DNA of 58,665 bases from assembly GCF_024171865.1 (NCBI RefSeq), contig NZ_JAMTCN010000030.1, positions 1 to 58,665 of the forward strand. The letters are read 5' to 3'. How positions within the stretch are numbered: position 1 is the first letter of the stretch; the number at the start of each line of letters is the position of its first letter. The translations under genes and the position numbers were made by a program. Positions 13,117 through 38,319 of this stretch are shown here, one piece after another. This stretch comes from Prauserella aidingensis (GTDB taxonomy: Bacteria; Actinomycetota; Actinomycetes; Mycobacteriales; Pseudonocardiaceae). Under the pieces are notes generated by a model that was not told where the DNA came from, did not search any database, and worked only from the letters and a program-made list of their open reading frames with translations.

Positions 13117-13190
13117 GTGTTGCGGATCCCCGGGACCGTGTTGCGGCTCCAGGAGCTCGTGTTGCGGATTCGCGAGGCCGTGTTGCTCCC
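13117..13190 (+). repeat. 21-bp tandem array A (4 units, sense to the LacI gene)
   Basis: GTGTTGCGG occurs at 13117, 13138 and 13159, and GTGTTGCTC at 13180: exact 21-bp spacing. The first unit begins 2 bp after the LacI stop codon and reads in the direction of that gene. Between the shared 9-mers the units vary (AT/CTC, then CC/GGG/AG-rich). Confidence 0.9.
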
Positions 13191-13310
13191 GCCCGTCGCC
13201 CGGCCACCACCCCTCAACGACGCGCTACCGTATCCGAGCACTGCCGTTGTCCGCTGCCGCTGGAGTCCCGAACATCGACAGCTCGTTATGACTGGTGTCA
13301 CCATCGCCGC

Positions 13311-15491
13311 ATGACAACGGCATATGTCACATGTCCGCTGTGTGAGGCGACCTGCGGGCTCGAGGTGACGCTGGACGGCGCGACGGTCACCGGCGTTCGC
13401 GGGGACCGCGACGACGTCCTCTCGCAGGGTTACATCTGCCCGAAAGGCGCGTCGCTCGGCGCGCTGCACCACGACCCCGACCGTCTACGCACGCCGTTGA
13501 TCCGCCGCGGCGGCGAACTCGTCGAGGCGTCGTGGGACGAGGCGTTCGCCGAGATCGACGCCCGCCTGCCCGGCCTCATCGACGCCCACGGGCGGGACGC
13601 GGTGGCGGTCTACGTCGGCAATCCCGTGTCGCACAACGTGTCCGCGTCCGTATACCTGCGCGCGCTCGTCAAAGCACTGCGCACGACCAACGTCTACACC
13701 GCGGGCACCGTCGACCAGATTCCGAAGCACTTCTCGTCGGGATACCTGTTCGGCGGCGCGATGACGATCCCTGTACCGGACCTGGACCGCACCGAGTACC
13801 TCCTCGTGCTCGGCGCCAACCCGCTCGTGTCGAACGGCAGCCTCATGACGGCCGGTGACGTGCGGTCGCGGCTGCGCGGGATCCGGAAACGGGGTGGACG
13901 GATCGTCGTCGTCGACCCGCGGCGCACACGCACGGCCGAGTTCGCGGACGAGCACCACGCGATCCGTCCCGGCGCCGACGCGCTGTTGCTGCTGGCGATG
14001 GTGCACACGCTGTTCGCCGAGAACCTCGTGCGGCTGGGCACGCTCTCCAGCCACGTCGCCGGGGTGGACGACGTGCGTGAACTGGCGGCCGATTTCGCAC
14101 CGGAGACCGTCACCGAGGCCACCGGCCTGCCCGCGGCCGACATCCGCAGGCTCGCCCGCGAACTCGCGGCCGCCGACCGCGCCGCGGTCTACGGCCGAAT
14201 CGGCACCACGACGCAGGAGTTCGGCACGCTGACGAGCTGGCTCGTCGACGTACTCAACGTGCTCACCGGTCACCTCGACCGCGAAGGGTGCGCGATGTTC
14301 CCGCTCGCGGCCGCGGGCCAGGCGAACACCGCGCCCGGCAAACCGTTCCGCGCGGGACGCCGTCACACCCGCGTGCGCGGCCTGCCCGAGGTCATCGGCG
14401 AGGTGCCCGTCGCGACACTCGCCGACGAGATCGAAACCCCGGGCGACGGGCAGGTGCGTGCGCTCATCACGCTCGCGGGGAACCCGTGCCTGAGCGCACC
14501 CAACGCGGCCCGCCTCGACGCCGCGCTGGCAGGGCTCGACTTCATGGTGGCGGTCGACATCTACCGCAACGAGACCACGCGCCACGCCGACGTCGTCCTG
14601 CCCGCACCGAGCGCCCTGGAACGGCCGCACTACGACGTGACGCTGTACCAGCTCGCGGTGCGCAGCGTCGCGAACTGGACCCCGGCCACGCTCACATCCG
14701 ACGTCCCGCAGGAGTGGCGGACGCTGTTGCGGCTCAGCGGCGTCATCGCGGGCCAGGGGCCGAATCCCGACGTGGATGCGCTCGACGACCTGTTCGCCGC
14801 CGACCTCGCGGGGCGCTACGGCGTCGCCGCCGACGACACCCGCCGCGGCCCGGAGCGGATCGTCGACCTGATGCTGCGCGCCGGGCCGTTCGACCTGACG
14901 CTCGCCGACCTCGAGGCGGCCCCGCACGGCGTCGACCTGGGGCCGATGCGGCCGCGCATCCCCGACGTGCTGTCCACCGAGAGCGGCAAGGTCGAGCTCG
15001 CGCCGGAGGCGATCGTGTCGGACGTCCCGCGGCTGGCGGCGGCGTTGACGCGTTCGTCGGCGCAGGGACCCGGTCCGGTGGGTGAGGCTTCCGGCGGGCG
15101 GGACCTGATCCTGATCGGCAGGCGGCACCTGAGCTCGAACAACTCGTGGATGCACAACCTGGAACCGCTCGTGCGGGGCAGCAACCGGTGCACGGCACAG
15201 CTGCATCCGGACGACGCGGGCGGGCTCGGGCTGGCCGACGGCGACTCGGTGACGGTCACCGCCCGCACCGGGTCGATCGCCGTCCCGGTGGAGATCACCG
15301 ACACGGTGCGGCCCGGCGTCGTGAGCATTCCGCACGGCTGGGGACACGACGTCACGGGCGTGCGAACCACCGTCGCCACCCGGCACAGCGGGGCGAACGC
15401 GAACGTGCTCACCGACGACTTCGCCCTCGACGTCCCCACTGGAACGGCCGCACTGGGCGGAATCCCGGTCACCCTGACCCCGACCCCCTGA
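13311..15491 (+). CDS. Molybdopterin oxidoreductase with N-terminal [4Fe-4S] site
   Basis: A 726-residue soluble enzyme of the formate dehydrogenase/nitrate reductase superfamily. The [4Fe-4S] ligands are Cys8-x2-Cys11-x3-Cys15 and Cys43 (GYICPKG). The bis-MGD body follows (GNPVSHNVSASVYLRALVKAL, VLGANPLVSNGSLMT, GGRIVVVDPRRTRTAE, TLAGNPCLSAPN), and the C-terminal molydopterin dinucleotide-binding domain contains RRHLSSNNSWMHNLEPLVRG. At the usual metal-ligand position the sequence reads GTVDQIPKH, with no Cys or SeCys, so an Asp or Ser ligand is possible. Substrate unknown. No signal peptide or partner subunits are adjacent. Flanked on both sides by 21-bp arrays. Confidence 0.88.
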   Translation: MTTAYVTCPLCEATCGLEVTLDGATVTGVRGDRDDVLSQGYICPKGASLGALHHDPDRLRTPLIRRGGELVEASWDEAFAEIDARLPGLIDAHGRDAVAVYVGNPVSHNVSASVYLRALVKALRTTNVYTAGTVDQIPKHFSSGYLFGGAMTIPVPDLDRTEYLLVLGANPLVSNGSLMTAGDVRSRLRGIRKRGGRIVVVDPRRTRTAEFADEHHAIRPGADALLLLAMVHTLFAENLVRLGTLSSHVAGVDDVRELAADFAPETVTEATGLPAADIRRLARELAAADRAAVYGRIGTTTQEFGTLTSWLVDVLNVLTGHLDREGCAMFPLAAAGQANTAPGKPFRAGRRHTRVRGLPEVIGEVPVATLADEIETPGDGQVRALITLAGNPCLSAPNAARLDAALAGLDFMVAVDIYRNETTRHADVVLPAPSALERPHYDVTLYQLAVRSVANWTPATLTSDVPQEWRTLLRLSGVIAGQGPNPDVDALDDLFAADLAGRYGVAADDTRRGPERIVDLMLRAGPFDLTLADLEAAPHGVDLGPMRPRIPDVLSTESGKVELAPEAIVSDVPRLAAALTRSSAQGPGPVGEASGGRDLILIGRRHLSSNNSWMHNLEPLVRGSNRCTAQLHPDDAGGLGLADGDSVTVTARTGSIAVPVEITDTVRPGVVSIPHGWGHDVTGVRTTVATRHSGANANVLTDDFALDVPTGTAALGGIPVTLTPTP

Positions 15492-15496
15492 CCCGC

Positions 15497-15601
15497 GTGT
15501 TGCAGTTTCGGGAGCCCGTGTTGCGGATTCCGGGGCGCGTGTTGCGGACTCGGGAGCCCGTGTTGCGGTTTCCGGGGCCTGTGTTGCGGATCCGGGGGCC
15601 G
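15497..15601 (+). repeat. 21-bp tandem array B (5 units, sense to the molybdopterin enzyme gene)
   Basis: GTGTTGC(A/G)G starts at 15497, 15518, 15539, 15560 and 15581, exactly 21 bp apart. The first unit starts 6 bp after the stop codon. Units alternate between a TCGGGAGCC and a TCCGGGGC type second half. The array lies between convergent genes. Confidence 0.92.
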
Positions 15602-15668
15602 GCCGCTCCATCACACGCTGCCGGGCGACAGGGTTGCGGGCGGCCCCGTGCAGGTTCGGACCGTGCCG

Positions 15669-16352
15669 TCAGGCGGCGATCCCCCACGCCCCTTGGAGAA
15701 GGTCACGGCCCGCCGACGTGACAGCCACACCACGCCCGGACGCATGTCGCGTCACCCAGCCGGCTTCGACGAACCGGGAGGCAACGGCCGCGCCCAACGC
15801 TCCACTCAGATGGAGTCGCCGTTCCGTCCAATCCAGACACACGCGCGTCGTGGGCCGACGCGTCCGTACCGCACCGTCGACGTCCACCCCGAGTTCGCGG
15901 AATCCGGCGGCGCCGGTGTCGGTCAACGCCAGCGCGTCGCGGTCCCGGAGCCACCCGCCGTCGGTCCACGCGTCCACGAGCGCGACCGCCAACCGGCCTG
16001 CGAGGTGGTCGTAACAGAACCTGGCCGCACCCAGCCGGTGCGCCTCCCGGCTGCGCCGCAGGCTCGTCACCGGAAGGCTGTCGGCCACGGATCCGAGCGC
16101 CTCGACCGCCGAGGCGACGTCCGGGCCCGCCAGTGCGTAGTAGCGGTGCCTGCCGCGCTTCTCGCACGTCACGAGGCCCGCGTCGACCAAAACACCGAGG
16201 TGTTCCGACGCGGTGGACGCCCGCACCCCGGCCGCCCTGCCCAGTTCCCCGGCCGGCCGCGCGGTGCCGTCGAGCAGCAGGTTCACGAAGACCGCGCGGG
16301 CCGGCGCCGCCAACGCGGCGCCGACCCGCGTGAGGTCCCGGTCCCGACTCAT
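15669..16352 (-). CDS. ArsR-type winged-helix regulator
   Basis: A 227-residue protein. The N-terminal ArsR HTH spans about residues 8-75: LAAPARAVFVNLLLDG, then GELGRAAGVRASTASEHLGVLVDAGLV, wing EKRGRHRYYALA. The C-terminal extension (about 150 residues) includes ARFCYDHLAGRLAVAL with one Cys and a second wing-like region near the end. This long form is typical of actinobacterial ArsR relatives with unknown effectors. It is divergent from the osmC-like gene with a 65-bp gap, suggesting it controls that gene, perhaps in response to oxidants. Confidence 0.85.
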   Translation of the reverse strand: MSRDRDLTRVGAALAAPARAVFVNLLLDGTARPAGELGRAAGVRASTASEHLGVLVDAGLVTCEKRGRHRYYALAGPDVASAVEALGSVADSLPVTSLRRSREAHRLGAARFCYDHLAGRLAVALVDAWTDGGWLRDRDALALTDTGAAGFRELGVDVDGAVRTRRPTTRVCLDWTERRLHLSGALGAAVASRFVEAGWVTRHASGRGVAVTSAGRDLLQGAWGIAA

Positions 16353-16417
16353 GGTGCGACCGTACGCCGCAGACGTTTCGGCGTGCGCCGCACGATTCCG
16401 GACCTACTGTCCGGCGC

Positions 16418-16870
16418 ATGACCGACTACGAGACACAGCTGAGCTGGTCCGGCTCGACCGCCCACGGGATCCGTTCCTATTCCCGCGCCCACACCGCCGC
16501 CGCCCCTCCCGCCACCGCAGCCGTCGAGCTGAGCGCTGACCCGGCCTTCCGCGGTGATCCCGGCCTGCTCAATCCGGAACAGCTCGTCGTTATGGCCGCG
16601 TCGTCGTGCCAGCTGCTGTCGTTCCTCGGCGCCGCGGCACGCGCCGGGATCGACGTCCTCGCCTACGAGGACCGGGGCACCAGCCGGCTCGACACCGCCG
16701 CGGAACCCGTGCGGCTCGGCACGATCCAGCTGGACGTCACCGTGCAGGTGGCTGCGGGGACGGACGAGCCGACGGTGCTCGACCTCGCCGAACGGGCCCA
16801 CCGTGAGTGCTTCGTCGCGAGCAGCCTGGCCACGCCCGTGCGGGTGCGGACGACCGTCGTGACCGCGTAG
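16418..16870 (+). CDS. OsmC/Ohr-family peroxiredoxin-like protein
   Basis: A 150-residue protein of the OsmC superfamily. The conserved elements are the first redox Cys in LVVMAASSCQLLSF (about residue 65) and the second Cys in AERAHRECFVASSL, with LNPEQL preceding the first. OsmC/Ohr proteins reduce organic hydroperoxides through this Cys pair. No partner gene is adjacent except the divergent ArsR regulator. It ends 80 bp from the convergent RNA methyltransferase gene. The exact subfamily (OsmC, Ohr or YhfA) is not resolved. Confidence 0.9.
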   Translation: MTDYETQLSWSGSTAHGIRSYSRAHTAAAPPATAAVELSADPAFRGDPGLLNPEQLVVMAASSCQLLSFLGAAARAGIDVLAYEDRGTSRLDTAAEPVRLGTIQLDVTVQVAAGTDEPTVLDLAERAHRECFVASSLATPVRVRTTVVTA

Positions 16871-16950
16871 CCGTCGGACTCGGGCACCGGCTCGGCGTCG
16901 GACCCGGACATCGGCCCCGGACGCCGGGCGCGTGCCGTTGGACCCGGCCC

Positions 16951-17622
16951 TCAGTCCCAGGCGTCGGCGACGTCGGCGTGCTGCCGAACCCACGTGTGCA
17001 TGACGATGCCCGCCGCGACGCCGGCGTTGATCGAACGGGTCGTGCCGAACTGCGCGATCGACACGACGAGCGACGCCGCGTCCTGGGCGGCCTTCGACAG
17101 CCCGGGGCCTTCCTGCCCGAACAGCAGCACGCACTCGCGCGGCACCGACGCTGTCTCCAGCGGCTGCGCGCCCGGGGTGTTGTCGACCGCCACGATCGGC
17201 AGCGCCCGCGCGGTGGCGAACTCGACGAGCCCGTCGACCGTCGGGTGGTGGTGAAGGTGCTGGTACCGGTCCGTCACCATCGCGCCGCGACGGTTCCAGC
17301 GGCGTTTGCCGACGATGTGCACGGCCGCGGCGGCGAACGCGTTGGCCGTCCGCACCACGGTGCCGATGTTGTGGTCGTGCTGCCAGTTCTCGATCGCCAC
17401 GTGGAACGGGTTCCGCCGCGTGTCCATGTCCGCGACGATCGCCTCGCGCCGCCAGTACCGGTAGGCGTCGACGACGTTGCGGCGGTCGCCCTCGGCGAGC
17501 AGTTCCGGGTCGTAGCGCTCGTCGTTGGGCCACGGACCTTCCCACGGGCCCACACCCACCTCGGGATTCGCGCCCCACTCGGTGGGCCCGGCGTCGCCGG
17601 TGCTCGGATCGTCAGCCGTCAC
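16951..17622 (-). CDS. TrmH/SpoU-family RNA 2'-O-methyltransferase
   Basis: A 223-residue SPOUT-class methyltransferase. The three trefoil-knot motifs are visible: NIGTVVRTANAFAAAAVHIVG (motif 1), CVLLFGQEGPGLS (motif 2) and SINAGVAAGIVMHTW (motif 3). It methylates the ribose 2'-OH of tRNA or rRNA using SAM; the target is not predictable. It resembles the protein encoded by Rv0380c, next to pyrE in M. tuberculosis; here pyrE is nearby, with DUF2784 and oxidase genes in between. The GTG start at 17622 opens an acidic N-terminal tail (ADDPSTGDAG). Confidence 0.9.
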   Translation of the reverse strand: MTADDPSTGDAGPTEWGANPEVGVGPWEGPWPNDERYDPELLAEGDRRNVVDAYRYWRREAIVADMDTRRNPFHVAIENWQHDHNIGTVVRTANAFAAAAVHIVGKRRWNRRGAMVTDRYQHLHHHPTVDGLVEFATARALPIVAVDNTPGAQPLETASVPRECVLLFGQEGPGLSKAAQDAASLVVSIAQFGTTRSINAGVAAGIVMHTWVRQHADVADAWD

Positions 17623-17682
17623 GCGGCCATTGTCCCGGGTCGGCGAGCGCGCATCCGAACGCCGCCCGCCGAACAGCCGTGG

Positions 17683-18078
17683 TCAACCGAGCCGCAGGGA
17701 GTGGCCGTGGCCGGAGCGCGGGTCGCCTGCGCGCTGCCGCCACAGCACGTACACGCCCACGTACGACACCGCGACCAGCAACAACGCCCCGACGGCCACG
17801 AACGGCAGCATCGAATGCGGAATGAGCGTCCCGTAGATGTAGTACTCGTTGAACCCGCCGGGCAGCGGTCCGAGCCCGCGCTGCTCACGCAGGAAGTCCT
17901 CCGCGACGGTGAGCGGACAGGCGAGCGAGAACACGTTCACGGCGATGCCCCACGCCGCGAACAACACGTGGACGTACACCGAGCGCGGCCATATCCACGC
18001 CAGAAAACCGCCGAGGCCGATGTAGGCGAGCGCGACGAAATGCGCGACGGTCACCAGAACCGTCAACAGCCACAACAT
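17683..18078 (-). CDS. DUF2784 membrane protein
   Basis: A 131-residue protein with three or four hydrophobic segments (LTVLVTVAHFVALAYIGLGG, VYVHVLFAAWGIAVNVF, MLPFVAVGALLLVAVSYVGV). The DUF2784 signature is visible: GGFLAWIWPRS, CPLTVAEDFLREQRGL, then a GYxxxxxxP-like element (NEYYIYGTLIPH). ATG 18078 has AGGTGGGG 5 nt upstream, which decides the start over the longer frame to 18201. Function is unknown. Confidence 0.88.
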   Translation of the reverse strand: MLWLLTVLVTVAHFVALAYIGLGGFLAWIWPRSVYVHVLFAAWGIAVNVFSLACPLTVAEDFLREQRGLGPLPGGFNEYYIYGTLIPHSMLPFVAVGALLLVAVSYVGVYVLWRQRAGDPRSGHGHSLRLG

Positions 18079-18267
18079 CGAACCCCACCTGCCCCGCGAC
18101 CGGCGACGAATTCCCCTGCGAATCGAACCCCTGTCGTCGTCAACATAGCGCGCACGGAGGAGATTCCGCGTCCGGAAAAACCCTGAAACGAGTGGTTTCA
18201 CGGCGGCCGTTACGGTTCCGATATCCGCTTCGCTTTCCGGGCGGCCCGTTCATCCGCCGGTGAGGGT

Positions 18268-18297
18268 GGCCGGCCGGGCTCGCGGGCCCGGCCGGCC
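18268..18297 (-). terminator. Hairpin after the amine oxidase gene
   Basis: Perfect 11-bp arms (GGCCGGCCGGG / CCCGGCCGGCC) with an 8-nt loop, starting 5 bp after the stop codon of the minus-strand amine oxidase gene. There is no T tract, as is usual in actinobacteria. Confidence 0.65.
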
Positions 18298-18302
18298 GCG
18301 CG

Positions 18303-19913
18303 TCACGAGTTCCGCACCCGGTCGTGCAAGGCCGTCACGACATACCGTGCCGAGTCGATCGCACCGGCCTGCCACGCGATGAAGTGGCTGAGCCAGTCGC
18401 CCGCGAAGTAGACGTTGCCCGCGGGTTCGTTCAGCAGGTCGTACTCACCGGAATCGCGCGAGGGCCAGCGCATCCAGCCACCTTCGATGTGCGGCGTGCG
18501 CTCCCACGAGACGGAGAACGACGCCCGCATGCCCTGCCGGTACTTCTCGCCGTGGATCTTCGCGCCCTGCGCCAACGCGCGGCGCAGGCGTTCGGCGGGG
18601 GTCAGCCGGCTGTAGGCCTCGGAGTACGGGCCCTCGGTGTAGTAGCCGACGATCACGCCCCGGTCGTCGTGGAACCCGTGCGACGGGTACCAGATGTTGA
18701 GCACGTCGAGGTCGGTCATGGTGATGCCGCCGTAGATCCGCTCGTCGAGCTCCCACCACCGGCGGTCGTACTCGAGGCCGAGCTTTCCCGAGGAGAAGGC
18801 CTCGGGAAACCGCAGGCCGGACGTCACGCGGGAGTCGAGGTTCGTCGGGATCCTCGCCATCACGTTCGGCGGCAGCGTCGCCACACAGAAGTCCCCGCTG
18901 ATGCGGGTGTCCTTGCCGCCGGGGCCGCGGTAGACGACGTCGACGCCCGCGTCGGTGTTGCGGACCTCGGACACCGGGGCGCCCGTGATCACCTCCGCAC
19001 CGGTGCGTTTCGCCGCCTTGTGGAGCGCGTCCGTGACGGCGTCCATGCCGCCGACGGGCTGCAGCAACGTCTCCGCGTGGGTGTACCGGGATTCGAACGT
19101 CAGCCAGCGCCCGAGCCCACTCGACAGCACCTCGGACACCGACGGTGGCGGCCCCAACGGCACACCCTCCTGATCCGCCGCGCCCGGTTCGACCTCGTAT
19201 CCGCGCCTGCTGCTCCCCGTGTACGCGAACCCGGCGTTCTTGTCGCCGATGTCGCCGTAGTACGACAGGAACGTCAGCAGCGCCTCCTTGTCGTCGGCCG
19301 TCAGCTCGGCGTCGAGCGCACCCTGGTCGACGGCCTTCGACAGCAGTTCCGACACGTACCCCTGGTAGTCGGCCTTCACGGTGCGGTACTGCTGCGCGCC
19401 GACACCCTCGCCGTGGACGAGTTTGTTGGCGTTGTGGGCCAGCAGCGGCTCCAGCGGAACACCCAGTTCACGGCAGTAGTCGACCGTGATGTGCGACTGC
19501 GGAATGCGTGCGGCACCGGCGTTGAAATAGCTGCCGGGATCCTTGCTGAACCTCGCGGTCTGCGTGTGACCGTCGAGGTCGGTCTCGGTGGTGCCCGCCC
19601 GGACGGTCCACACCCGGCCGCCCACCCGGTCCTTCGCCTCCAGTACGACGCACCGGTAGCCCGCCTTGCCGAGCTCGTACGCCGTCGTCAGACCGGCCAC
19701 GCCCGCGCCCAGGATCACGACCGTCTTGCCACGGCTGCCTGCGGCGAGGTCGCCGGCGCGCGGTTCGCGGAAATCCGGCACGGCCAGCGCCTGCGGCGAG
19801 GCGACGAGGCCCAGCGCACGCATCGACTCGAACATCGCACCGGCACCACCTGCCACCCCGATCGAGCGCAGCAGACTACGGCGGGTCATCCCGGCACTTT
19901 CGGTAGACAACAT
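18303..19913 (-). CDS. Flavin monoamine oxidase / L-amino-acid oxidase, Tat-exported
   Basis: A 536-residue FAD amine oxidase. The N-terminus has a twin-arginine signal (Arg11-Arg12 in MTRRSLLRSIGVAGGAGAM), so it is folded with FAD in the cytosol and exported. The Rossmann FAD motif is VVILGAGVAGLTTAYELG, followed by GGRVWTVR. The C-terminal FAD motif is GNVYFAGDWLSHFIAWQAGAIDSA. It oxidatively deaminates an amine or L-amino acid, producing H2O2 and ammonia; which substrate is unclear. ATG 19913 follows GAAGGGAG and fits the Tat signal. Monocistronic, with a hairpin at the 3' end. Confidence 0.92.
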   Translation of the reverse strand: MLSTESAGMTRRSLLRSIGVAGGAGAMFESMRALGLVASPQALAVPDFREPRAGDLAAGSRGKTVVILGAGVAGLTTAYELGKAGYRCVVLEAKDRVGGRVWTVRAGTTETDLDGHTQTARFSKDPGSYFNAGAARIPQSHITVDYCRELGVPLEPLLAHNANKLVHGEGVGAQQYRTVKADYQGYVSELLSKAVDQGALDAELTADDKEALLTFLSYYGDIGDKNAGFAYTGSSRRGYEVEPGAADQEGVPLGPPPSVSEVLSSGLGRWLTFESRYTHAETLLQPVGGMDAVTDALHKAAKRTGAEVITGAPVSEVRNTDAGVDVVYRGPGGKDTRISGDFCVATLPPNVMARIPTNLDSRVTSGLRFPEAFSSGKLGLEYDRRWWELDERIYGGITMTDLDVLNIWYPSHGFHDDRGVIVGYYTEGPYSEAYSRLTPAERLRRALAQGAKIHGEKYRQGMRASFSVSWERTPHIEGGWMRWPSRDSGEYDLLNEPAGNVYFAGDWLSHFIAWQAGAIDSARYVVTALHDRVRNS

Positions 19914-22321: not shown

Positions 22322-24937
<2,616 letters not shown>

Positions 24938-29462: not shown

Positions 29463-30638
29463 ATGACAGCCGAGCCGCTCAACCCCATTCCCAAGGTCGC
29501 GGATTCCAGCAACGCTCCGGAGGCCGTGACCACGATGGTCCGCCATGTCCGCGAGACGTGGCGTGAGATCGAGCCGTACACCCCGGAAGTCGCCCAGTTC
29601 TTCTACGGGATGTTGTTCACCCTCGCCCCCGAGGCCCGCGACTTCTTCCCGATCCACATGGACGTGCGCAGCGGCAAGCTCGTCCGCGCCATCGTCAACA
29701 TCCTGCAGTCGGTGGACCGGCCCGACGACGTCGCGCCCTACCTCGTGCAACTCGGCCGCGACCACCGCAAGTTCGGCGTGCAGTCGCACCACTACGAGGC
29801 GATCGGCACGGCACTGCTGGCCGCGGTGAAACGCCAGCTCGGCCCCGGCTGGACCGACGACGTCGAACGCGCCTGGGCGGAAGCCTTCACGATCGTCGCC
29901 CGCTCGATGCAGGACGCCGCCGAGTCCGACGAGTACCCGCCGTCGTGGACGGGCACCGTGGCCGAACATCGCAGGCTGAGCTGGGACCTGGCGCTCGTGC
30001 GGATCGAGCCGGACCGTCACATCCCGTACCGGCCCGGCCAGTACCTGAGCGTCGAGGTCCCGCAGCGGCCGCGGTTGTGGCGGAACCTGTCACCCGCCAA
30101 CGCGCCGCGACCCGACGGTTCGATCGAGTTCCACATCCGCGCCATCGAAGGCGGGTGGGTCTCCCGCGGCATCGTCAGCCACACCCAACCCGGCGACGTG
30201 TGGCGGTTCGGCGCACCCATGGGTCAACTCCACGTCGACCGGGAGTCCGGCCGCGACGTCCTCATGGTCGCGGGCGGCACGGGAATCACCCCGCTGCAGT
30301 CGATCCTCGACGACCTCGGCCGGTTCGGGAAGAACCCCAACGTGACGATCTTCTACGGCGGTGCCGCCCGCGAGGACCTGTACGCGCTGGAGGTGCTGCG
30401 CTCGCTGTCGGCGACGAACCCGTGGCTGACCGTCCACCCGGTGGTCGAACAGGACGAGGGACTGTCCGGGTTCGAGGTCGGCACCCTCGCCGACGTCGTC
30501 TCGTCGTACGGCGCGTGGGCCGACCACGACGTGCTCGTCTCCGGTTCGCCCGCGATGATCCGCGCGACCGTCAGCCGCATGCTCGTCGCGGGCACCGCCC
30601 TGGACCAGATCCGCTACGACCCGTTCATCGAGGAATAG
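29463..30638 (+). CDS. Type II flavohemoglobin
   Basis: A 391-residue fusion of a globin (residues about 1-140) and an FAD/NAD reductase module. The globin part has a proximal-His segment GRDHRKFGVQSHHYEAIG. The FAD part reads PGQYLSVEVPQRPRLWRNLS, in place of the canonical RxYS of NO-detoxifying flavohemoglobins, and the NAD part is VAGGTGITPLQSIL. These changes typify type II flavohemoglobins such as mycobacterial Rv0385, which is next to clpB as here and has been linked to D-lactate oxidation rather than NO dioxygenation. ATG 29463 is the last good start before the globin domain; longer starts are possible. A 21-bp array begins 18 bp after the stop. Confidence 0.88.
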   Translation: MTAEPLNPIPKVADSSNAPEAVTTMVRHVRETWREIEPYTPEVAQFFYGMLFTLAPEARDFFPIHMDVRSGKLVRAIVNILQSVDRPDDVAPYLVQLGRDHRKFGVQSHHYEAIGTALLAAVKRQLGPGWTDDVERAWAEAFTIVARSMQDAAESDEYPPSWTGTVAEHRRLSWDLALVRIEPDRHIPYRPGQYLSVEVPQRPRLWRNLSPANAPRPDGSIEFHIRAIEGGWVSRGIVSHTQPGDVWRFGAPMGQLHVDRESGRDVLMVAGGTGITPLQSILDDLGRFGKNPNVTIFYGGAAREDLYALEVLRSLSATNPWLTVHPVVEQDEGLSGFEVGTLADVVSSYGAWADHDVLVSGSPAMIRATVSRMLVAGTALDQIRYDPFIEE

Positions 30639-30655
30639 TTCTCGACCCGGTGCGT

Positions 30656-30802
30656 GTGTCCTGCACTAGGCACCGCGTGTTGCGCCCTCGGGAGCCCGTG
30701 TTGCGCGCTCCGGGACGCGTGTTGCGCCTTCGGGAGCTCGTGTTGCGCGCTCCGGGACTCGTGTTGCGGACTCGGGAGCTGGTGTTGCATGCGCAGGGAC
30801 CG
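30656..30802 (+). repeat. 21-bp tandem array C (cap unit plus 6 units, sense to flavohemoglobin)
   Basis: A cap unit beginning GTGTCCTGCACTAG at 30656 is followed in exact 21-bp register by GTGTTGCG at 30677, 30698, 30719, 30740, 30761 and GTGTTGCAT at 30782. Units 2 and 4, and 1 and 3, are nearly identical, suggesting duplication of a 42-bp pair. It starts 18 bp after the flavohemoglobin stop. Confidence 0.92.
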
Positions 30803-30919: not shown

Positions 30920-31624
30920 GTGGAGACCACCGTCGACGTCACCGACGGCACGATCGGCGGCTATCTCGCCGAACCTCAATCCGAGGTCGCCGGGCCGGGT
31001 CCGTGGCCCGGGGTCGTCGTCGTGCACGACGTGTTCGGCCTGACGCGGGACACCCGTCTCATCACGGAACGCTTCGCCACCGCGGGATTCGTCGCGCTCG
31101 CGCCGGACCTGTACTCCCGCGGAGGTCTGGTGCGGTGTGTCCGGTCGGTGTTCCGCTCGATGATGGCGGGCAGTGGTAGGGCCTTCGACGACCTCGAGGC
31201 GACCCGGCGCGCGCTGGCCGAACGCGACGACTGCACCGGCCGCGTCGGAATCGTGGGGTTCTGCCTCGGCGGCGGATTCGCGCTCGTGGCCGCGAGTGGC
31301 GAGTTCGACGCCTCCGCGCCCTACTACGGTCAGTTGCCGGCCGACAGGTCTGTGCTCGACGACGCCTGCCCCGTGGTCGCCAGCTTCGGTGGCAAGGACC
31401 CGACGTTGAAGGGTGCCGCCGAGCAGCTCGAAGGCGAACTCGCCGCACGCGGCATCCCGCACGACGTCAAGGAGTACCCGCAGGCTCGGCACAGCTTCGC
31501 CAACCAACTCCCGCTCGGCCCACTCAACCTCCTGGCCCGCGTCAGCGGATTCGGCTACGACCACGAGGCCAGCGAGGATTCGTGGCGCCGGGTACTCGCC
31601 TTCTTCGGCGAACACCTGCGCTGA
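30920..31624 (+). CDS. Dienelactone hydrolase-family protein
   Basis: A 234-residue alpha/beta hydrolase. Nucleophile Cys in VGIVGFCLGGGFAL (about residue 115), acid Asp in VASFGGKDPTLKG, and His in QARHSFANQ near the C-terminus: the Cys-Asp-His triad of dienelactone hydrolases. The natural substrate is unknown; many actinobacterial members are not part of a chlorocatechol pathway, and none is present here. GTG 30920 follows GAGGAGG. The gene is bracketed by 21-bp arrays pointing toward it. Confidence 0.9.
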   Translation: METTVDVTDGTIGGYLAEPQSEVAGPGPWPGVVVVHDVFGLTRDTRLITERFATAGFVALAPDLYSRGGLVRCVRSVFRSMMAGSGRAFDDLEATRRALAERDDCTGRVGIVGFCLGGGFALVAASGEFDASAPYYGQLPADRSVLDDACPVVASFGGKDPTLKGAAEQLEGELAARGIPHDVKEYPQARHSFANQLPLGPLNLLARVSGFGYDHEASEDSWRRVLAFFGEHLR

Positions 31625-31639
31625 GTCGGCTGCTCGGAA

Positions 31640-31754
31640 TCCGCAACACGAACTCCTGAACCCGCAACACGAGCTCCCGGATCCACAACACGGTCCCGCG
31701 AGGACGCAACACGGTCCCGCGGATCCGCAACACGGGCCCGCGAGTGCAGGACAC
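31640..31754 (-). repeat. 21-bp tandem array D (cap unit plus 5 units, sense to hspR)
   Basis: On the minus strand the cap GTGTCCTGCACTCG starts at 31754, then GTGTTGCGG, GTGTTGCGT, GTGTTGTGG, GTGTTGCGG and GTGTTGCGG start at 31733, 31712, 31691, 31670 and 31649: exact 21-bp steps. It starts 25 bp after the hspR stop and lies between convergent genes. Confidence 0.92.
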
Positions 31755-31779
31755 GCGACGGTGCGAGAAGGGGGCCGGG

Positions 31780-32229
31780 TCAGCGCTTGGGCTTGCCCGG
31801 CTTCCAGACCACCATCGCGTTCTGCTTGCGGAACGGCACGAGGTCCTTGCGGTACGAAGCGTGCACCGCGGCCGCCGCCTGCTCCGCGGCCGCGTACGCC
31901 GCCGACAGTTCCTCGGCCAGTTCGGTCACGCGGGCCTGCAGCGCCTCGACCTGGTTCTCCAGGTCGATGATCCGCTTGATGCCCGCGAGGTTGACGCCCT
32001 CCTCCTGCGACAGCCGCTGCACCTCACGCAGCTGGGCGATGTCGCGCATGGAGTAGCGCCTGCCGCCGCCGGTCGTACGGCCGGGCGAGACGAGTCCCAT
32101 CCGGTCGTACGACCGCAGCGTCTGCGCGTGCAGCCCCGAAAGCTGGGCCGCGACGGAGATGACGAAGACGGGCGTGTCCTCGTCCGCGCCGTGCGGCATC
32201 CCCAAACCCGGCGAACCTGGACCGAACAT
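31780..32229 (-). CDS. hspR: HspR, MerR-family heat-shock repressor
   Basis: A 149-residue repressor. MerR-type HTH about residues 20-60 (VFVISVAAQLSGLHAQTLRSYDRMGLVSPGRTTGGGRRYSMRDIAQL), then a coiled coil (IDLENQVEALQARVTELAEEL) and a basic tail ending KPGKPKR. HspR with DnaK as corepressor binds HAIR sites and shuts off dnaK and clpB when DnaK is free. ATG 32229 overlaps the dnaJ stop (ATGA); a GTG one codon earlier is also in frame. It is the last gene of the dnaK operon, forming a feedback loop. Confidence 0.95.
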   Translation of the reverse strand: MFGPGSPGLGMPHGADEDTPVFVISVAAQLSGLHAQTLRSYDRMGLVSPGRTTGGGRRYSMRDIAQLREVQRLSQEEGVNLAGIKRIIDLENQVEALQARVTELAEELSAAYAAAEQAAAAVHASYRKDLVPFRKQNAMVVWKPGKPKR

Positions 32230-33449
32230 CACTCACCTCTGTCGCGCAACAGCGCAGTGATCTCGGGTCGCGGATCGTGCTGTGCGACCGCATCGGCGTA
32301 CTTCTCGAGTGCTGCCTTGGCTTCGTCGTCGACCTTGGAGGGCACGACGACCTGCAGCGTAACGAGGAGATCGCCCTGCGAGCCATCCCGTTTGGCGATT
32401 CCCTTGCCACGCACCCGCAGCACGCGCCCGCTCGACGTGCCCGCGGGCACGCGCACGGACACCTTCGAGTCGAGCGTCGGCACGGTCAGCGTCGTACCGA
32501 GCGCCAGCTCCGTGAACTCCACTGGGAGCGTGATCGTCAGATCGTTGCCGGACCGGCCGAACACGCCGTCGGCGTTGACGTGCACGCGCACGAACAGGTC
32601 GCCTGCGGGTGCACCACCCTTGCCCGGTTCGCCCTGCCCGGCGAGACGGATCTTCTGGCCGTCGTCGACGCCCGGCGGGATCCGCACGGTGAGCGTGCGG
32701 GTCCGGGTGGACACGCCGTCGCCCGCGCACTCCGGGCAGGGGTCGTCGATCTGCTGACCGCTGCCGCGGCAGTCCGGGCACGGTTCGGAGAACGCGAACG
32801 CACCCTGGTTGCGGTTGACGAGCCCGGCACCGGAGCAGGTCGGACAGGTCCGCGGAGAGGTGCCGGGCCGCGCGCCGTTGCCGCCGCACGTACCGCACGT
32901 CGCGGGACTCGACAGCCGCAGCGGCAGGGTCGCACCCCTCACCGCCTCGGCGAAGTCGATCCGCACATCGGTTTCGACGTCGCTGCCACGCTGCCCGCGT
33001 TGCGGGCCCGCCGCACCGCCGCCCCGGCGGCCGAACAGGTTGCCGAGCATGTCGCCCAACCCGCCGAAACCACCCGCCTGACCACCGGCACCGCCGCCCT
33101 GGCCGAAGATGTCGCCCAGGTCGAATCCGCCCGCGCCGCCGGGACCACCGGGGCCACCTGGCCCGGGGCCTCCGCCGGGGAAGCCGCCGAACCCGCCACC
33201 GGTACGGCCGGAGCCGAACACTGCGCGAGCCTCGTCGTACTCCTTGCGCTTGTCCGGATCGGACAGCACACCGTAGGCCTCCGAGACGGCCTTGAACTTC
33301 TTCTCCGCCTCGGCGTTGCCCGGGTTGGCGTCGGGATGGTTCTCCCGAGCCAGCTTCCGGTAGGCCTTCTTGATCTCGTCCGTGGAAGCGTCGGAGGAGA
33401 CGCCCAGCTCACGGTAGAAGTCCTTGTCGAGCCACTCCCGAGCGCTCAT
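32229..33449 (-). CDS. dnaJ: DnaJ co-chaperone
   Basis: A 406-residue class A J-protein. J domain residues about 9-75 with the HPD in [11 protein letters not shown], a long Gly/Phe-rich region (about 80-150), a zinc domain with four CxxCxGxG motifs ([32 protein letters not shown]), and C-terminal substrate-binding domains. It stimulates DnaK ATPase and delivers unfolded clients. Starts 28 bp after the end of grpE with an SD GGAGGAGA. In the order dnaK-grpE-dnaJ-hspR this corresponds to actinobacterial DnaJ1. Confidence 0.97.
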
Positions 33450-33476
33450 CGGGCGTCTCCTCCTTTCCGCTTGTCG

Positions 33477-34208
33477 TCAGTTCCGCTGCTCATTGCCGTC
33501 GATGGGGAGTTCACCTTCGACCGGCGGGTCGATCGGCGTCTCCGCATCAGTTGCCTGCCCGCCCTGGTCGGCGGGCGCCTCGCCGGGCTCGTGGTCCGTG
33601 ACGGCCACGAGCGCCGCCCGCAGCACACGGTCGCCGAACCGGTAGCCGCGCCGCAGCACGGTCGTCACGGTCGGGCCGGACACGTCGGGCGACGTGTCGT
33701 GCTGCACCGCTTCGTGCACGCTCGGGTCGAACTCGTCGCCCTCGGCGCCGAACGGCTCGAGACCGGCCTTCTCCAGCGCCTCGACCAGCTTGTCGGCCAC
33801 CGACTTGAACGCGCCGGTCAGGTCGCCGTGCTGGGCGGCGCGCTCGACGTCGTCCAGCAGCGGCAGCAGGTCACCCGCCAGCGAAGCCTTGCCGGAGGCC
33901 GCGAGCTGCTCACGTTCCTTGTCGGCACGCCGCCGGTAGTTGGCGTACTCGGCCTGGAGACGCTGCAGATCCGCGGTGCGTTCCTCCAGCTGCTTGGCCA
34001 GGTCCGACTGGGCGTCCGACTCGGCCTGCCCGGCCTCGCCGGCCGCCCCGCCGACCTCCGTGCCCGCGAGTTCGCCCGCGGGTACCTCGACCGCCTCGCC
34101 GTCCTCGGGAGCGCGCAGGTCGCCCGACTCCGGGTCGACCTTGCGACGGTCCCGAACGACGACCGGCTCCTGCTCTTCCCGGGCTTCGGTCTCGTCCCGC
34201 TCTGTCAC
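33477..34208 (-). CDS. grpE: GrpE nucleotide exchange factor
   Basis: A 243-residue dimeric exchange factor for DnaK. A long acidic N-terminal tail, then a coiled coil ([30 protein letters not shown], about residues 70-105) and the C-terminal beta-wing ([34 protein letters not shown]). The N- and C-terminal extensions are long, as in other actinobacteria. GTG 34208 overlaps the dnaK stop by 4 bp (GTGA), so translation is coupled. Confidence 0.95.
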
Positions 34209-36073
34209 TTCTTGTCGTCCTCGTCGACGATCTCGGCGTCCACGACGTCGTCGTCGGCCTTGGCGGACCCGGCGTCACCGGCACCCGCGGCGCCCGCGGC
34301 ACCGGCGTCGGCACCGGCCGCGCCCTCGGCGTCCGAGTTGGCGTACAGCGCCTGGCCCAGCTCCTGCGAGACCGTGTTCAGGTTCTCGACGGACTCCTTG
34401 ACCTTGGCGATGTCGTCGCCCTTGAGGGCCTCGTTGGTCTCCTCGATGGCCGACTTGACCTTGGTCTTGAGCTCGTCCGGCAACTTGTCCTCGTTGTCGG
34501 TCACGAACTTCTCGGTCTGGTAGGAGAGCGTCTCCGCCTGGTTGCGGGTCTCCGCCTCCTCGCGACGCCGCTGGTCCTCCTCGGCGTGCGCCTCGGCGTC
34601 CTTGACCATCTGGTCGATGTCCTCCTGCGGCAGCGCGGAGCCACCGGTGATGGTCATCGACTGCTCCTTGTTGGTGCCCAGGTCCTTCGCCGTGACGTGC
34701 ACGATGCCGTTGGCGTCGATGTCGAAGGAGACCTCGATCTGCGGCACGCCGCGCGGCGCGGGCGGCAGACCCGTCAGCTCGAACATGCCGAGCTTCTTGT
34801 TGTGGGCGGCGATCTCGCGCTCACCCTGGAACACCTGGATCTGCACCGACGGCTGGTTGTCGTCGGCCGTCGAGAAGATCTCGGAACGCTTGGTCGGGAT
34901 CGTCGTGTTGCGCTCGATGAGCTTGGTGAACACGCCGCCCTTCGTCTCGATGCCCAGCGACAGCGGCGTGACGTCCAGCAGCAGGACGTCCTTGACCTCG
35001 CCCTTGAGCACACCGGCCTGCAGACCGGCGCCGACGGCGACGACCTCGTCCGGGTTGACGCCCTTGTTCGGCTCCTTGCCGCCGGTCAGTTCCGTGACCA
35101 GCTCGGTCACGGCCGGCATGCGCGTGGAACCGCCGACGAGCACGACGTGGTCGATCTCGCCGACCGAGATGCCCGCGTCACGCACCACGTTGTTGAACGG
35201 GTTGCGCGCACGCTCCAGCAGGTCGGAGGTGATGCGCTGGAACTCGGCACGCGAGAGGGTCTCGTCGAGGAACAGCGGGTTCTTGTCCGCGTCCACCGTG
35301 ATGTACGGCAGGTTGATGCTGGCGGTGGACGAGCTGGAGAGCTCGATCTTCGCCTTCTCCGCGGCCTCCTTGATGCGCTGGAGGGCCATGCGGTCCTTGG
35401 TCAGGTCGATGCCGTTGGACGACTTGAACTTGTCGACCAGCCAGTCGACGATGCGCTCGTCCCAGTCGTCACCACCGAGGTGGTTGTCACCACTGGTGGC
35501 ACGGACCTCGACGACACCCTCGCCGATCTCCAGCAGCGACACGTCGAACGTACCGCCACCGAGGTCGAAGACCAGGATGGTCTGTTCCTTCTCGCCCTTG
35601 TCGAGGCCGTACGCCAGCGCGGCCGCGGTCGGCTCGTTGACGATGCGCAGGACGTTCAGTCCCGCGATCTGGCCGGCCTCCTTCGTGGCCTGGCGCTGGG
35701 CGTCCTCGAAGTACGCCGGGACGGTGATGACCGCGTCGGTCACCTCGTCGCCCAGGTAGGACTCGGCGTCGCGCTTGAGCTTCATCAGCACGCGCGCGCT
35801 GATCTCCTGGGCGGTGTAAGCCTTGTCGTCGACCTCGGTCTTCCAGTCGGTGCCCATGTGCCGCTTGACCGACCGGATCGTCCTGTCGACGTTGGTGACG
35901 GCCTGGTTCTTCGCGGGCTGACCCGTGAGCACTTCGCCGTTCTTGGCGAAGGCGACGATGGACGGGGTGGTACGCGCCCCTTCCGAGTTGGCGATGACCG
36001 TCGGCTCACCGCCCTCGAGCACGGAAACGACCGAGTTCGTCGTACCAAGGTCGATGCCGACCGCTCGCGCCAT
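34205..36073 (-). CDS. dnaK: DnaK, Hsp70 chaperone
   Basis: A 622-residue Hsp70. ATPase domain with [19 protein letters not shown] at residues 4-22, [17 protein letters not shown], and [16 protein letters not shown]; then a substrate-binding beta-domain and a helical lid, with an Ala/Gly/Asp-rich C-terminus ending [11 protein letters not shown]. It folds and holds client proteins with DnaJ and GrpE, and acts with HspR as corepressor. Two HAIR sites flank the promoter. The SD AGGAGGG is well placed. First gene of the operon. Confidence 0.98.
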
Positions 36074-36148
36074 GTGTCTTTCCCTCCTACTGATCCTGTG
36101 GACACCCCACCGGCCCGGCGCACCGGGCGGCTCGGCGGATCACCGAGA

Positions 36149-36225
36149 CCTGAGCGGGGCTCACTCAAGTTCTAACGCTACCGGCCGAGTGTCGTCAAAC
36201 GAGACTTGAGTGACGGCTGCTCAAC
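36149..36225 (-). promoter_or_regulatory. dnaK promoter with two HAIR operators
   Basis: HAIR 1: CCTGAGC (36149-36155), 7-bp spacer, ACTCAAG (36163-36169). HAIR 2: CTTGAGT (36205-36211), 7-bp spacer, GCTCAAC (36219-36225). Between them, on the minus strand, are a -35 TTGACG (36198-36193) and a -10-like TTAGAA (36175-36170) with 17-bp spacing. So HspR would sit on both sides of RNA polymerase. In 36226-36385 I see no gene. Confidence 0.8.
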
Positions 36226-36385
36226 CTTTCTGCCAGGGTAACGTCCGACCTGCGACGTTTGTTCCCGCGGCGGCTACGGACCGACAGGTCGAGACCACGC
36301 GTGTCCTTCTCCGGCCTGCCGACCTCCGGGTACCCCGAAACCTGCGCCGCCATGACGCAAGCCGCGGATTCGACGGGCACCACAT

Positions 36386-37051
36386 CTACCGGGGCTCGAC
36401 CAGCACGTCGCCGCTGTTGGTGGACAGGTCGAGCACCCGGTCGGCGTTCGGGCTGACGGTCACGCCGATGTCACGGTCGCCGCTGTTCGAATCGCCGAGG
36501 ACCTCGTACTCGCCGTCGGGCACGGTCAGCCGGACGTCGCCGCTGTTGAGGTCGGCCGTGACCCGTCGCGGATCGGCCACCTCCAGCTCGACGGAACCGG
36601 AGTTGCCGTCGACGTCGACCGAGCCCCGGGCCGAGCCGCGCACGTCGCCACTGTTCATCTCGACGTGCACATCGCCGACCCCGTCCACCGTGAGCGTGGC
36701 CGAGTTGAACTCCCCGTCGACCGCCACCCGACTCGGCACCGTCACCTCGTAGTTCACCGAGCAGAACCAGTCGCAGTCGCCCAGTTCCAGCGTCGAACCG
36801 TCGACCTCGTACGTCTCGCCGGGTTCGGCGAACAGGCGCTGCACCGACTGTCGCACGGTCGTGCGCTGCGCGTTCTCGTCCACCCGGATGTCGACGTCCC
36901 CGGAGCCGAGGTCGAGCCGGATCCGTTCGACGTCGGCGTCCACGATGCCGGTCCGCTCCTCCGACGTCGGCCACAGCCACCCCGTGCCGACGCCGACGCC
37001 CGCCACCACGAACACCGCACCACCGACCGCCAGCACCGACCTGCGCGACAC
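36386..37051 (-). CDS. DUF4097-type membrane-anchored beta protein
   Basis: A 221-residue protein. N-terminal hydrophobic segment (SVLAVGGAVFVVAGVGVGTGWLW) behind SRR, then a repetitive beta domain with recurring motifs of the type NSGDVRG, GNSGSVEL, LNSGDVRL, DSNSGDRDI and TNSGDVLV: the DUF4097 beta-strand repeat. These are thought to be surface or periplasmic adhesin-like or stress-related proteins; function is unknown. GTG 37051 has GGAGGGAG upstream. It is divergent from the PEBP gene. Confidence 0.85.
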   Translation of the reverse strand: MSRRSVLAVGGAVFVVAGVGVGTGWLWPTSEERTGIVDADVERIRLDLGSGDVDIRVDENAQRTTVRQSVQRLFAEPGETYEVDGSTLELGDCDWFCSVNYEVTVPSRVAVDGEFNSATLTVDGVGDVHVEMNSGDVRGSARGSVDVDGNSGSVELEVADPRRVTADLNSGDVRLTVPDGEYEVLGDSNSGDRDIGVTVSPNADRVLDLSTNSGDVLVEPR

Positions 37052-37301
37052 GTCACTCCCTCCGCTCCCGCCTGCCACGCCGACGCTAGGCGTGACCGGC
37101 CCACGGGGATATCGGGGACCCCCCTGGTTTTCCCCGATCCGACACCCCGAGGAGCCCGCGCCGCGCATCCCCGCCCCTCGAACCACGCCGCCGGGCCGCG
37201 TCGCCCGGGCGCCGCCGGGCCGCGCCGTCCGGGCCGCGCTGACGCGCCGTGCCCGGCTGCCTACGCTGGGGCCGGGTCGCAGCGATGCACCCGCCGACGT
37301 T

Positions 37302-37352
37302 CCCCCATGGGCACCTTGGTTGCACTCACCGCCACCAAAGTGCCCTTGGAGG
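37302..37352 (+). repeat. 51-bp imperfect hairpin repeat (copy 2), in the PEBP 5' leader
   Basis: 21-bp arms (37302-37322 and 37332-37352) around the loop CACTCACCG, homologous to 25117-25169. A TACGCT -10 box at 37262-37267 would place it inside the 5' UTR of the PEBP gene, 48 bp before its ATG. The rest of 37052-37301 contains only a short inverted repeat (ATCGGGGA 37111, TCCCCGAT 37131) and no gene. Confidence 0.85.
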
Positions 37353-37399
37353 CTCTGTCTCCAGCCGACTCAGTGCCACCCGACCACGAGGAGCGTGAG

Positions 37400-37948
37400 A
37401 TGGCCGACGCGCCGTTCAACTTCAACCCCTACGACTTCCTGCCGCAGGTGCCGAGCTTCGACGTGCGCAGCGACGACGTGACCGACGGCCAGGCGCTGCC
37501 CACCCCGCAGCTGTCCGGCCTGTTCGGCGCGGGCGGCGAGGACACCTCGCCTCACCTGGCGTGGTCCGGCTTCCCCGACGGCACCAAGAGCTTCGTCGTG
37601 ACCTGCTACGACCCGGACGCGCCGACCGTCAGCGGGTTCTGGCACTGGGCGGTGTTCAACATCCCCGCCTCCGTCACGGAGCTGCCCACGGACGCCGGGA
37701 ATCCGAGCGGGGCGAACCTGCCCGAAGGCGCGAAGATGCTCACCACCGACGGCGGTGTGCGCCAGTACCTCGGCGCCGCGCCGCCTCCCGGGCACGGGCC
37801 GCACCGCTACATCTTCGTGGTGCACGCGCTGGACGTCGAGTCGCTCGACATCCCCGACGAGTCCCGGCCCGCGTTCCTGCAGTTCAACATGTTCGGCCAC
37901 ACGCTGGGCCGCGCAACCCTCACGGGCCTTCACGAGAACAAGGGCTGA
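37400..37948 (+). CDS. PEBP-family (YbhB/YbcL, Raf kinase inhibitor-like) protein
   Basis: A 182-residue phosphatidylethanolamine-binding-like protein. Signature: GGEDTSPHLAWSGFPDGTKSFVVTCYDPDAPT (with the DPDAP pocket), FWHWAVFNIP, PPGHGPHRYIFVVHAL (GxHxY pocket). PEBP proteins bind anionic ligands; in bacteria the role is unknown. ATG 37400 follows GAGGAGCGTGAG. Cytosolic, no signal peptide. A 21-bp array begins 28 bp after the stop. Confidence 0.92.
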   Translation: MADAPFNFNPYDFLPQVPSFDVRSDDVTDGQALPTPQLSGLFGAGGEDTSPHLAWSGFPDGTKSFVVTCYDPDAPTVSGFWHWAVFNIPASVTELPTDAGNPSGANLPEGAKMLTTDGGVRQYLGAAPPPGHGPHRYIFVVHALDVESLDIPDESRPAFLQFNMFGHTLGRATLTGLHENKG

Positions 37949-37975
37949 CACCGTAGTCCCGCGCCCCGGGGACGC

Positions 37976-38136
37976 GTGTTGCGTTCCCGGGGCCTCGTGT
38001 CGCGGATCCCGGGGCGCGTGTTGCGTTCCTGAGTGACCGTGTTGCGCTTCAAGGGGCGCGTGTTGCGTCCTCCGGGGCCATGACTCGCATCACGTGTCCT
38101 GCACGCGGCACCACGTGTCCTGCATTCGGTGTTCTA
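37976..38136 (+). repeat. 21-bp tandem array E (5 units plus 2 cap-type units)
   Basis: GTGTTGCG-type units at 37976, 37997 (GTGTCGCGG), 38018, 38039 and 38060, in exact 21-bp register, then a degenerate spacer and two GTGTCCTGCA units at 38094 and 38115, again 21 bp apart. Sense to the PEBP gene. Here the cap-type units are at the far end of the array. Confidence 0.88.
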
Positions 38137-38151
38137 CGGCGGAGCACGGCA

Positions 38152-38319
38152 CGGCGTCCGGAACCCGCAACACGGTCCCCTGAACCCGCAACACGGCGTC
38201 CGGGATCTGCAACACGGGCCCCAGGAACGCAACACGGTCCCCGGGATCCGCAACACGGCGCCCTGAACCTGCAACACGATCCCCCGGATCCGCAACACGG
38301 CGTCTTGAGTGCAGGGCAC
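38152..38319 (-). repeat. 21-bp tandem array F (cap-like unit plus 7 units, sense to TetR)
   Basis: On the minus strand a cap-like GTGCCCTGCACTC starts at 38319, 10 bp after the TetR stop. GTGTTGC units follow at 38298, 38277, 38256, 38235, 38215, 38194 and 38173; one step is 20 bp and the others 21. It converges with array E, filling the 380-bp gap between two convergent genes. Confidence 0.9.

Follow-up and report, generated by a model that had tools for sequence, protein, structure and literature searches.

Repeats dispersed between genes are commonly written off as noise or treated as repetitive extragenic palindromes (REPs) or variable number tandem repeats (VNTRs), and REPs are tied to RAYT transposases. 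We have analyzed a family of tandem arrays with a 21-bp step in a stretch of 58,665 nucleotides of Prauserella aidingensis (contig NZ_JAMTCN010000030.1 of assembly GCF_024171865.1, from here on the window), in the genome to which it belongs (G000) and in relatives of this actinomycete. REPs are palindromes tagged GTAG or CGTC that occur downstream of genes, in some cases inside them, and in gaps of the convergent and unidirectional kinds (as one part of PMC3733652 describes them). The arrays resemble REPs and the bacterial interspersed mosaic elements (BIMEs) as short, high-copy repeats found in the same kinds of gaps, on the downstream sides of genes and sometimes within genes. However, they are direct repeats of a non-palindromic unit that advance by a constant 21 bp, and no Y1 transposase match was found in the window genome. 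A REP or BIME identity was rejected because the unit consensus, CGTGTTGCGGATTCCGGGGCC (a profile from the window and from C3, one of the contigs of G000), is not a palindrome and the couplings between its positions do not favour pairing; some arrays do fold better than their shuffles.

Other described repeats offer partial parallels. The STRR heptamers of cyanobacteria are short direct repeats of 7-bp units present in many gaps. The mycobacterial interspersed repetitive units (MIRUs) are intergenic tandem repeats oriented with the genes, with units several times longer, few loci and no 21-bp phase; a MIRU requires a unit of several tens of bases, and we discarded it on the period found here. 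Rickettsia palindromic elements enter coding genes in frame, as single palindromic copies and not as phased arrays. In Beggiatoaceae, the TAACTGA repeats are candidate binding sites, and the copies of BOGUAY are mostly just upstream of start codons (in the part of PMC4679880 dealing with them). They are also short direct repeats in many gaps, but their 7-bp units precede starts while the arrays are found behind stops and advance by two helical turns. A survey of prokaryotes treats dispersed non-coding satellites as rare and made of long repeats, and names only those of Leptospira interrogans and Methanocella conradii (PMC6749651). The arrays are likewise a non-coding tandem-repeat family present at many sites, and differ in the 21-bp unit, the fixed period and the lineage-specific units over several genera. 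CRISPR arrays consist of near-identical repeats with unique spacers between them, the repeats measuring 24-48 bp (PMC3733652); a CRISPR array was rejected on the units, which have 9 conserved and 12 variable bases per 21 bp, with the variable bases reused between loci. We found no description of such arrays in the open-licence literature on Prauserella, Saccharomonospora, Amycolatopsis and Pseudonocardiaceae, and nothing in it contradicts a preliminary description of the window, made from its letters alone, that knew of no family with this signature.

A constant 21-bp step with lineage-specific units

The six arrays listed in the preliminary description were all recovered where it had placed them, both by profile and by motif calls (Table 1). 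The 9-mer proposed as common to them, GTGTTGCGG, has 63 matches in the window with up to one mismatch, versus 26.3 expected, and 0 of 100 shuffles reached 63. Positions 1-9 of the unit are strongly fixed and most of the others variable, over a broader range than the form ATYC-SGGGRSCC given before for the second half. The step is 21 bp save for one of 20 bp in array 6, the sole exception, as had been noticed. Instead of some 37 units in six arrays, the profile caller gives 33 units and a looser CGTGT caller 38 units in 7 arrays. A sibling unit, CGTGTCCTGCA, follows the same 21-bp register at the edges of several arrays, and in the TGC-type arrays of the Prauserella samples it was the first or last unit in 8 of 9 cases (a count of head units without a control, 39 of 142 with up to two mismatches, was left aside). 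Gene calls are throughout those of our own simple predictor and not of a standard annotator.

The same period appears when no motif is assumed. We scanned the intergenic DNA of nine genomes at lags from 7 to 70, and lag 21 (followed by 42 and 63) was the leading one in G000, G002, G004, G005, G006, G009 and G059. It was found in 23 gaps of G000, with 3 for the next lag that is not a multiple, and it was also the leading intergenic lag of the window. Inside predicted genes, where each genome had 0-3 cases, it did not lead as a rule, although it ranked first in G009 (3 genes). Within the gaps of Prauserella, GTGTTGC recurs at 21 bp 177 times, at 42 bp 11 times, at 63 bp twice and at 19, 20 or 22 bp 8 times, and no spacing of 41, 43, 62 or 64 was found. 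The spacings at 42 and 63, with none off phase, indicate that the phase survives the decay of a unit.

Substitutions and indels (insertions or deletions) behave very differently in the arrays. Over 231 pairs of adjacent units, mismatch ranges from 0 to 16% in positions 1-9 and from 4 to 64% in positions 10-21, and neighbouring units differ on average at 4.77 of 21 positions. One-base indels, the only shifts that the caller admits, affect 8 of 241 called steps, versus approximately 1,100 substitutions between neighbouring units. The indel to substitution ratio was 0.007 in the arrays and between 0.045 and 0.064 in the array-free gaps of four species pairs, i.e. indels were 6-9 times rarer in the arrays (Fisher tests against two of the pairs gave p 6e-13 and 6e-8). 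When all the CGTGT spacings from 19 to 23 are counted, 22 are odd versus 232 at 21. The arrays thus keep a constant two-turn spacing against indels, as expected of phased protein-binding arrays with sites one or two turns apart. In a VNTR or local minisatellite the units of one locus would be much more alike, but here the variable positions differ by 4.21 of 12 within an array versus 5.07 of 12 between arrays (174 distinct arrays, 720 units). Since units within an array differ almost as much as those of different arrays, the shared core does not come from recent local copying, and the weak likeness inside arrays is not the outcome of fresh local duplication. A higher-order alternation of 42 bp, hinted at by Tandem Repeats Finder, was not significant over 108 arrays and was set aside.

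The observation is real and far larger than the window. A genome-wide search, the check suggested with the preliminary description, found the pair GTGTTGCG-N13-GTGTTGCG 334 times in G000 and its reversed form 0 times. A stricter two-unit pattern, in a collection of one genome per species (84,980 species; the genome of the window, or one very close to it, may be absent), gave 71 stretches, all in Prauserella (P. rugosa, P. halophila, P. alba, P. isguenensis and P. salsuginis). When the unit pair was scanned in 100 genomes including G000, five of the six same-genus relatives had 60-254 matches and G001 none, and among the remaining 93 genomes two had one or two matches. G001 has a unit of its own, CGTGTCAGCACCCCACGTCGC, with 331 triple matches of the general pattern, which is CGTGT three times at 21 bp. 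This general pattern is present in 35 of 120 genomes of the family, many of them with few matches; those with at least 20 (20-365) belong to seven genera (g1, g4, g10, g16, g21, g25 and g27), and in them the reversed pattern gave 0-6. Inside genera it is patchy, as g16 and g27 have genomes with 48 or 33 matches and others with none or one. Over 296 genomes of the phylum it was found in 11, with 365 matches in G000 and one to three in each of the ten others. Among the matches listed, the genera have their own unit types, CGTGTCCTGCACTCCCGACGC in g4, CGTGTCGTCCGTCCAATCACG in g16, CGTGTCCGCCGTCTGTGCACG-like in g21, CGTGTCCGCAGGTTGCGTAGC in g25 and CGTGTTCGCCGCTCCGGGCGC in g27. Units are lineage-specific, and CGTGT and the 21 bp constant.

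Arrays with the 21-bp step and other units were seen in G009 (L279, L281; C1:1246289 and 1272347), of GCGAGTYGCACC type, and in G059 (L308-L316), of CGTGATTGGACGGACGACACG and CGTAACTCGCGTGATTGAAGC types, and the step is therefore shared more widely than CGTGT. At a single locus of G342, a genome of the same class (L171; f18, g76), CGTGTCACGGGCTCACTCCCA is repeated almost perfectly at 21 bp. G005 (C3:420001-680000) has both CGTGTTGC and CGTGTYYTGC units, 25 of each, and the two types never share an array (0 of 19 mixed). Among the places listed, the array matches of G000 seem much denser on C3 than on C4, which is an impression.

Table 1. Arrays and associated elements of the window, and arrays inside coding genes at other loci (L).
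Feature	Position	Strand	Units	Setting
Array 1	13116-13199	+	4 units, 21-bp step	begins 1-2 bp past stop of LacI-type regulator gene (12080-13114); unit 4 merges into ~72-bp element
~72-bp spacer/tail element	13178-13250, end approximate	+		
Array 2	15496-15600	+	5 units	4 bp past stop of molybdopterin oxidoreductase gene (13365-15491); convergent gap
Array 3	30676-30801	+	6 units, CGTGTTGC...; in-phase CGTGTCCTGCA-type head unit from 30655	behind globin/FAD-NAD reductase gene (29463-30638); tandem gap
Array 4	31630-31755	-	6 units, first of CGTGTCCTGCA type	behind MerR-type regulator gene (31780-32229); convergent gap
Array 5	37975-38079	+	5 units	behind PBP-family gene (37373-37948); convergent gap
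Sibling-type pair	38093-38134	+	2 units CGTGTCCTGCA, 21-bp step	
Array 6	38154-38299 (profile); 38133-38320 (looser caller)	-	7 (profile) or 9 (looser caller)	behind TetR-type gene (38329-38892); convergent gap
In-gene array	L060:2364-2447	antisense		in frame
In-gene array	L065:3157-3198	antisense		in frame
In-gene array	L087:5975-6037	antisense		in frame
In-gene array	L068:2844-2927	antisense		in frame
In-gene array	L068:3872-3955	antisense		in frame
In-gene array	L092:673-714	antisense		in frame
In-gene array	L092:1605-1688	antisense		in frame

The ~72-bp spacer or tail element (GTGTTGCKCCCRCCCGTCGCCCGRCCRCC...CGACGCGCTG...) had 31 matches with E < 1e-8 including the window, some loci being counted twice. 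Among the matches listed it appears in Prauserella sequences only, with CGTGT units in equal orientation on one or both flanks. The window match to its model covers 13157-13315 (E 7e-20), and the model seeds include this copy.

Placement behind genes and inheritance between species

We have examined 33 arrays of the window and the G000 sample; the gap that holds them is convergent for 19, tandem for 12 and divergent for 2. Convergent gaps make up 23% of all gaps, a clear enrichment (p 2e-5), and divergent ones, which are depleted, 26%. Within the tandem gaps of all samples, 53 of 61 arrays were nearer the 3' end, and 43 were sense versus 18 antisense. This sense bias is modest, since the first sample gave 24:5 but the second 19:13 (the second omits duplicates, arrays less than 900 bp from a locus end and, for orientation only, nine that overlap genes); an earlier count by profile at the same set of named loci had given 17:10 in tandem gaps. 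Sense arrays hug the stop codon, 30 of 43 being within 30 bp of it versus 6 of 18 antisense ones (p 0.011). Of the two biases expected in the preliminary description, the one towards gene ends is thus borne out in the samples and the one towards the sense strand is weaker than supposed. The sense direction reported for the window is trivially true for four of the six arrays, as a convergent gap makes it so by construction, and only those at 13116 and 30676 are informative. Starts had been given as 2 to 28 bp past the stop; we measured 1, 4, 37 (16 with the head unit), 24, 26 and 29 bp.

Some arrays are downstream of terminator-like hairpins (recognized by eye), e.g. behind groEL2, and the one at C3:72648 is behind the gene of the SRP RNA (C3:72523-72619). 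No predicted gene is touched by the 33 arrays found in the window and on C3, and a coding origin was rejected on this count, though in a wider set 9 of 101 do overlap one (one of these 101 has no flanking gene and nine overlap genes, and 91 were used for orientation). Neighbouring arrays less than 2 kb apart faced inward in 33 cases, outward in 2 and the same way in 14, an excess largely due to the 3'-end placement. A mobile cassette between inverted arrays was also discarded, as in two orthologous gap groups (4 and 5) the enclosed gene is present with or without arrays.

Within the genus, array positions at orthologous gaps coincide beyond chance in most genome pairs. G000 and G004 share 7 positions versus 0.74 expected; for G002 and G004 alone the sharing was not significant (p 0.13). 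Orientation was equal in 44 of 44 pairwise comparisons over approximately 15 gaps. The units themselves, comparing only the largest array per gap, were nearly as unlike as random pairs (5.52 versus 6.15 of 16, p 0.03), and in some orthologous gaps (groups 3, 5, 11 and 13) the unit types differ between species. Presence or absence of an array varies among species with 83-92% identity of coding sequences, and a single remnant unit can persist in gaps where none is called. As an individual case, chosen because its array was already noticed, groEL2 is followed by arrays of two to eight units in G000, G001, G002, G003, G004, G030 and G059, the last built of another unit, and by a remnant with the spacer in G006. 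No array was found behind it in G005, G009 and G136 (L188 of G054 being a paralogue, and the flanks in G026, G134, G015 and G107 staying outside the count).

Candidate roles of the arrays

BldC binds cooperatively, head to tail and with polarity, to direct repeats of about one-turn spacing, and the Sal boxes of eukaryotes, with TTF-I, form polar terminator arrays that act as boundaries at gene ends. Both serve here as models of how such a system may work, with no homology claimed. We tentatively prefer to read the arrays as phased cis-acting binding sites for a putative protein. The conserved part of these asymmetric sites, CGTGT and a few lineage-specific bases, would be on one face of the helix every two turns, so that copies of the protein could bind side by side, head to tail, forming a polar patch. 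Because most arrays are found at the 3' ends of genes and in convergent gaps, the likeliest effect would be a boundary, by which transcription is blocked or buffered, or DNA topology fixed, where transcription should stop. We infer the protein, its polymerisation or cooperative binding and the boundary. That each lineage has its own repeats with the same step suggests the sites of a DNA-binding protein, and the survival of the 21-bp spacing and CGTGT through unit divergence and genus-level unit turnover argues for a binding array. Of the two functions put forward in the preliminary description, the phased binding array is therefore the better supported, and the 3'-untranslated (3'-UTR) or terminator element the less.

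A broader proposal is a family-wide address system, in which hundreds of 21-bp phased CGTGT units would be read by a putative polar DNA-polymerising protein, with the specificity and all the dispersed sites changing together by lineage while two-turn spacing and many positions are kept. In this wide form we consider it rather unlikely. Over several genera it is the spacing that stays and the sequence that changes, which allows the constrained quantity to be stated as CGTGT together with two helical turns.

Several results weigh against the binding sites. No candidate binding protein was found. Tolerated junk would likewise be expected near 3' ends and away from promoters, and the antisense, in-frame arrays inside coding genes, such as those in an AAA/VWA gene at loci of P. 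halophila, P. alba and P. isguenensis, do not fit a gene-end role. The second sample did not reproduce the sense bias, the pooled counts are not independent as they include orthologous loci of several species, and in convergent gaps with a single array this was nearer its sense gene in 24 of 46, with no bias. Of the 26 cross-genus genome pairs, 25 share no array site, but with an expectation of 0.12 or less per pair this comparison has no power. In the motif-free scan, lag 21 had 2 gaps in G107, tied with lag 12, and 0 in G136. Besides, part of the arrays outfold their shuffles on the sense strand, as detailed below.

The main rival is a selfish or neutral dispersed minisatellite, multiplied and copied between loci by a machinery that would need CGTGT and the period, and persisting where it is harmless, i.e. 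behind stops, in convergent gaps and in disordered linkers. We regard it as a serious possibility, if not a probable one. The arrays inside genes speak in its favour. Apart from the AAA/VWA gene, P. halophila and P. alba have them in an acyltransferase (PF01553) and a GNAT (PF13444) gene, and in these three genes they encode NPQHGPR-like heptads in variable linkers. In the AAA/VWA linker, again an individual case, an array is present in 6 of the 14 genomes; the six (four Prauserella, one g21 and one g10) represent three genera, each with its own unit type, that of the g21 genome resembling its intergenic one. The array therefore tolerates a coding context, which a unit of 21 bp, seven codons, permits. 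The avoidance of divergent gaps and the variable presence between close species also agree with a selfish repeat, and the lineage-specific units could reflect the spread of new subfamilies. Yet local copying predicts a much greater likeness within arrays than the small difference observed, position and orientation are inherited, and the modest sense bias and the hugging of stops are not what a selfish repeat predicts. Neither RAYT nor reverse transcriptase is matched in the window genome, and both were rejected as drivers. Specifically, PF01797 (Y1, RAYT) had 0 matches in G000 and was found as often in array-bearing as in comparison genomes (3 of 15 each), and the Pfam reverse transcriptase models, also without match in G000, in 6 of 15 of each.

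A topology element similar to BIMEs, recruiting gyrase or topoisomerase to absorb positive supercoils between convergent genes, would fit the convergent excess, and REPs elsewhere show convergent and unidirectional placement (in the same part of PMC3733652). We find it improbable, as the unit, unlike REP and BIME, is not palindromic and 61 arrays are in tandem gaps, mostly near a stop.

Still less probable is an RNA element of the 3'-UTR that affects termination or mRNA stability. The closeness of sense arrays to stops would fit it, and so would the folding of the sense strand, which exceeds that of its shuffles with a mean z of -1.59 and values below -2 in 37% of 59 arrays, the antisense strand giving -0.62 and 19%. 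However, the strongest couplings, whether inside a unit or from one unit to another, do not favour pairing (best excess 0.60 versus 0.53 expected, over 657 units and 456 neighbours), so RNA structure is not favoured by them, and a moderate folding signal remains. Nor does an RNA need a strict 21-nt phase, and the arrays that follow terminator-like hairpins or the SRP RNA, those inside coding genes and the 18 antisense ones in tandem gaps do not fit. The 3' flanks with a close array had no stronger hairpins (median -17.0 versus -19.8, p 0.07). An intrinsic terminator was rejected, with no pairing couplings, no U-run in the unit consensus and arrays that can follow terminator-like hairpins.

Coming back to the binding sites, a constraint on CGTGT and a two-turn step leads one to expect a specific DNA-binding protein, for which it supplies a direct bait. 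Should the arrays be selfish, they would be a minisatellite spreading without a match to Y1 transposase or reverse transcriptase, in itself surprising. If the binding sites are real, they would be a natural example of many dispersed sites co-evolving with one reader, and a new layer of chromosome organisation or of transcription-boundary marking in actinomycetes.

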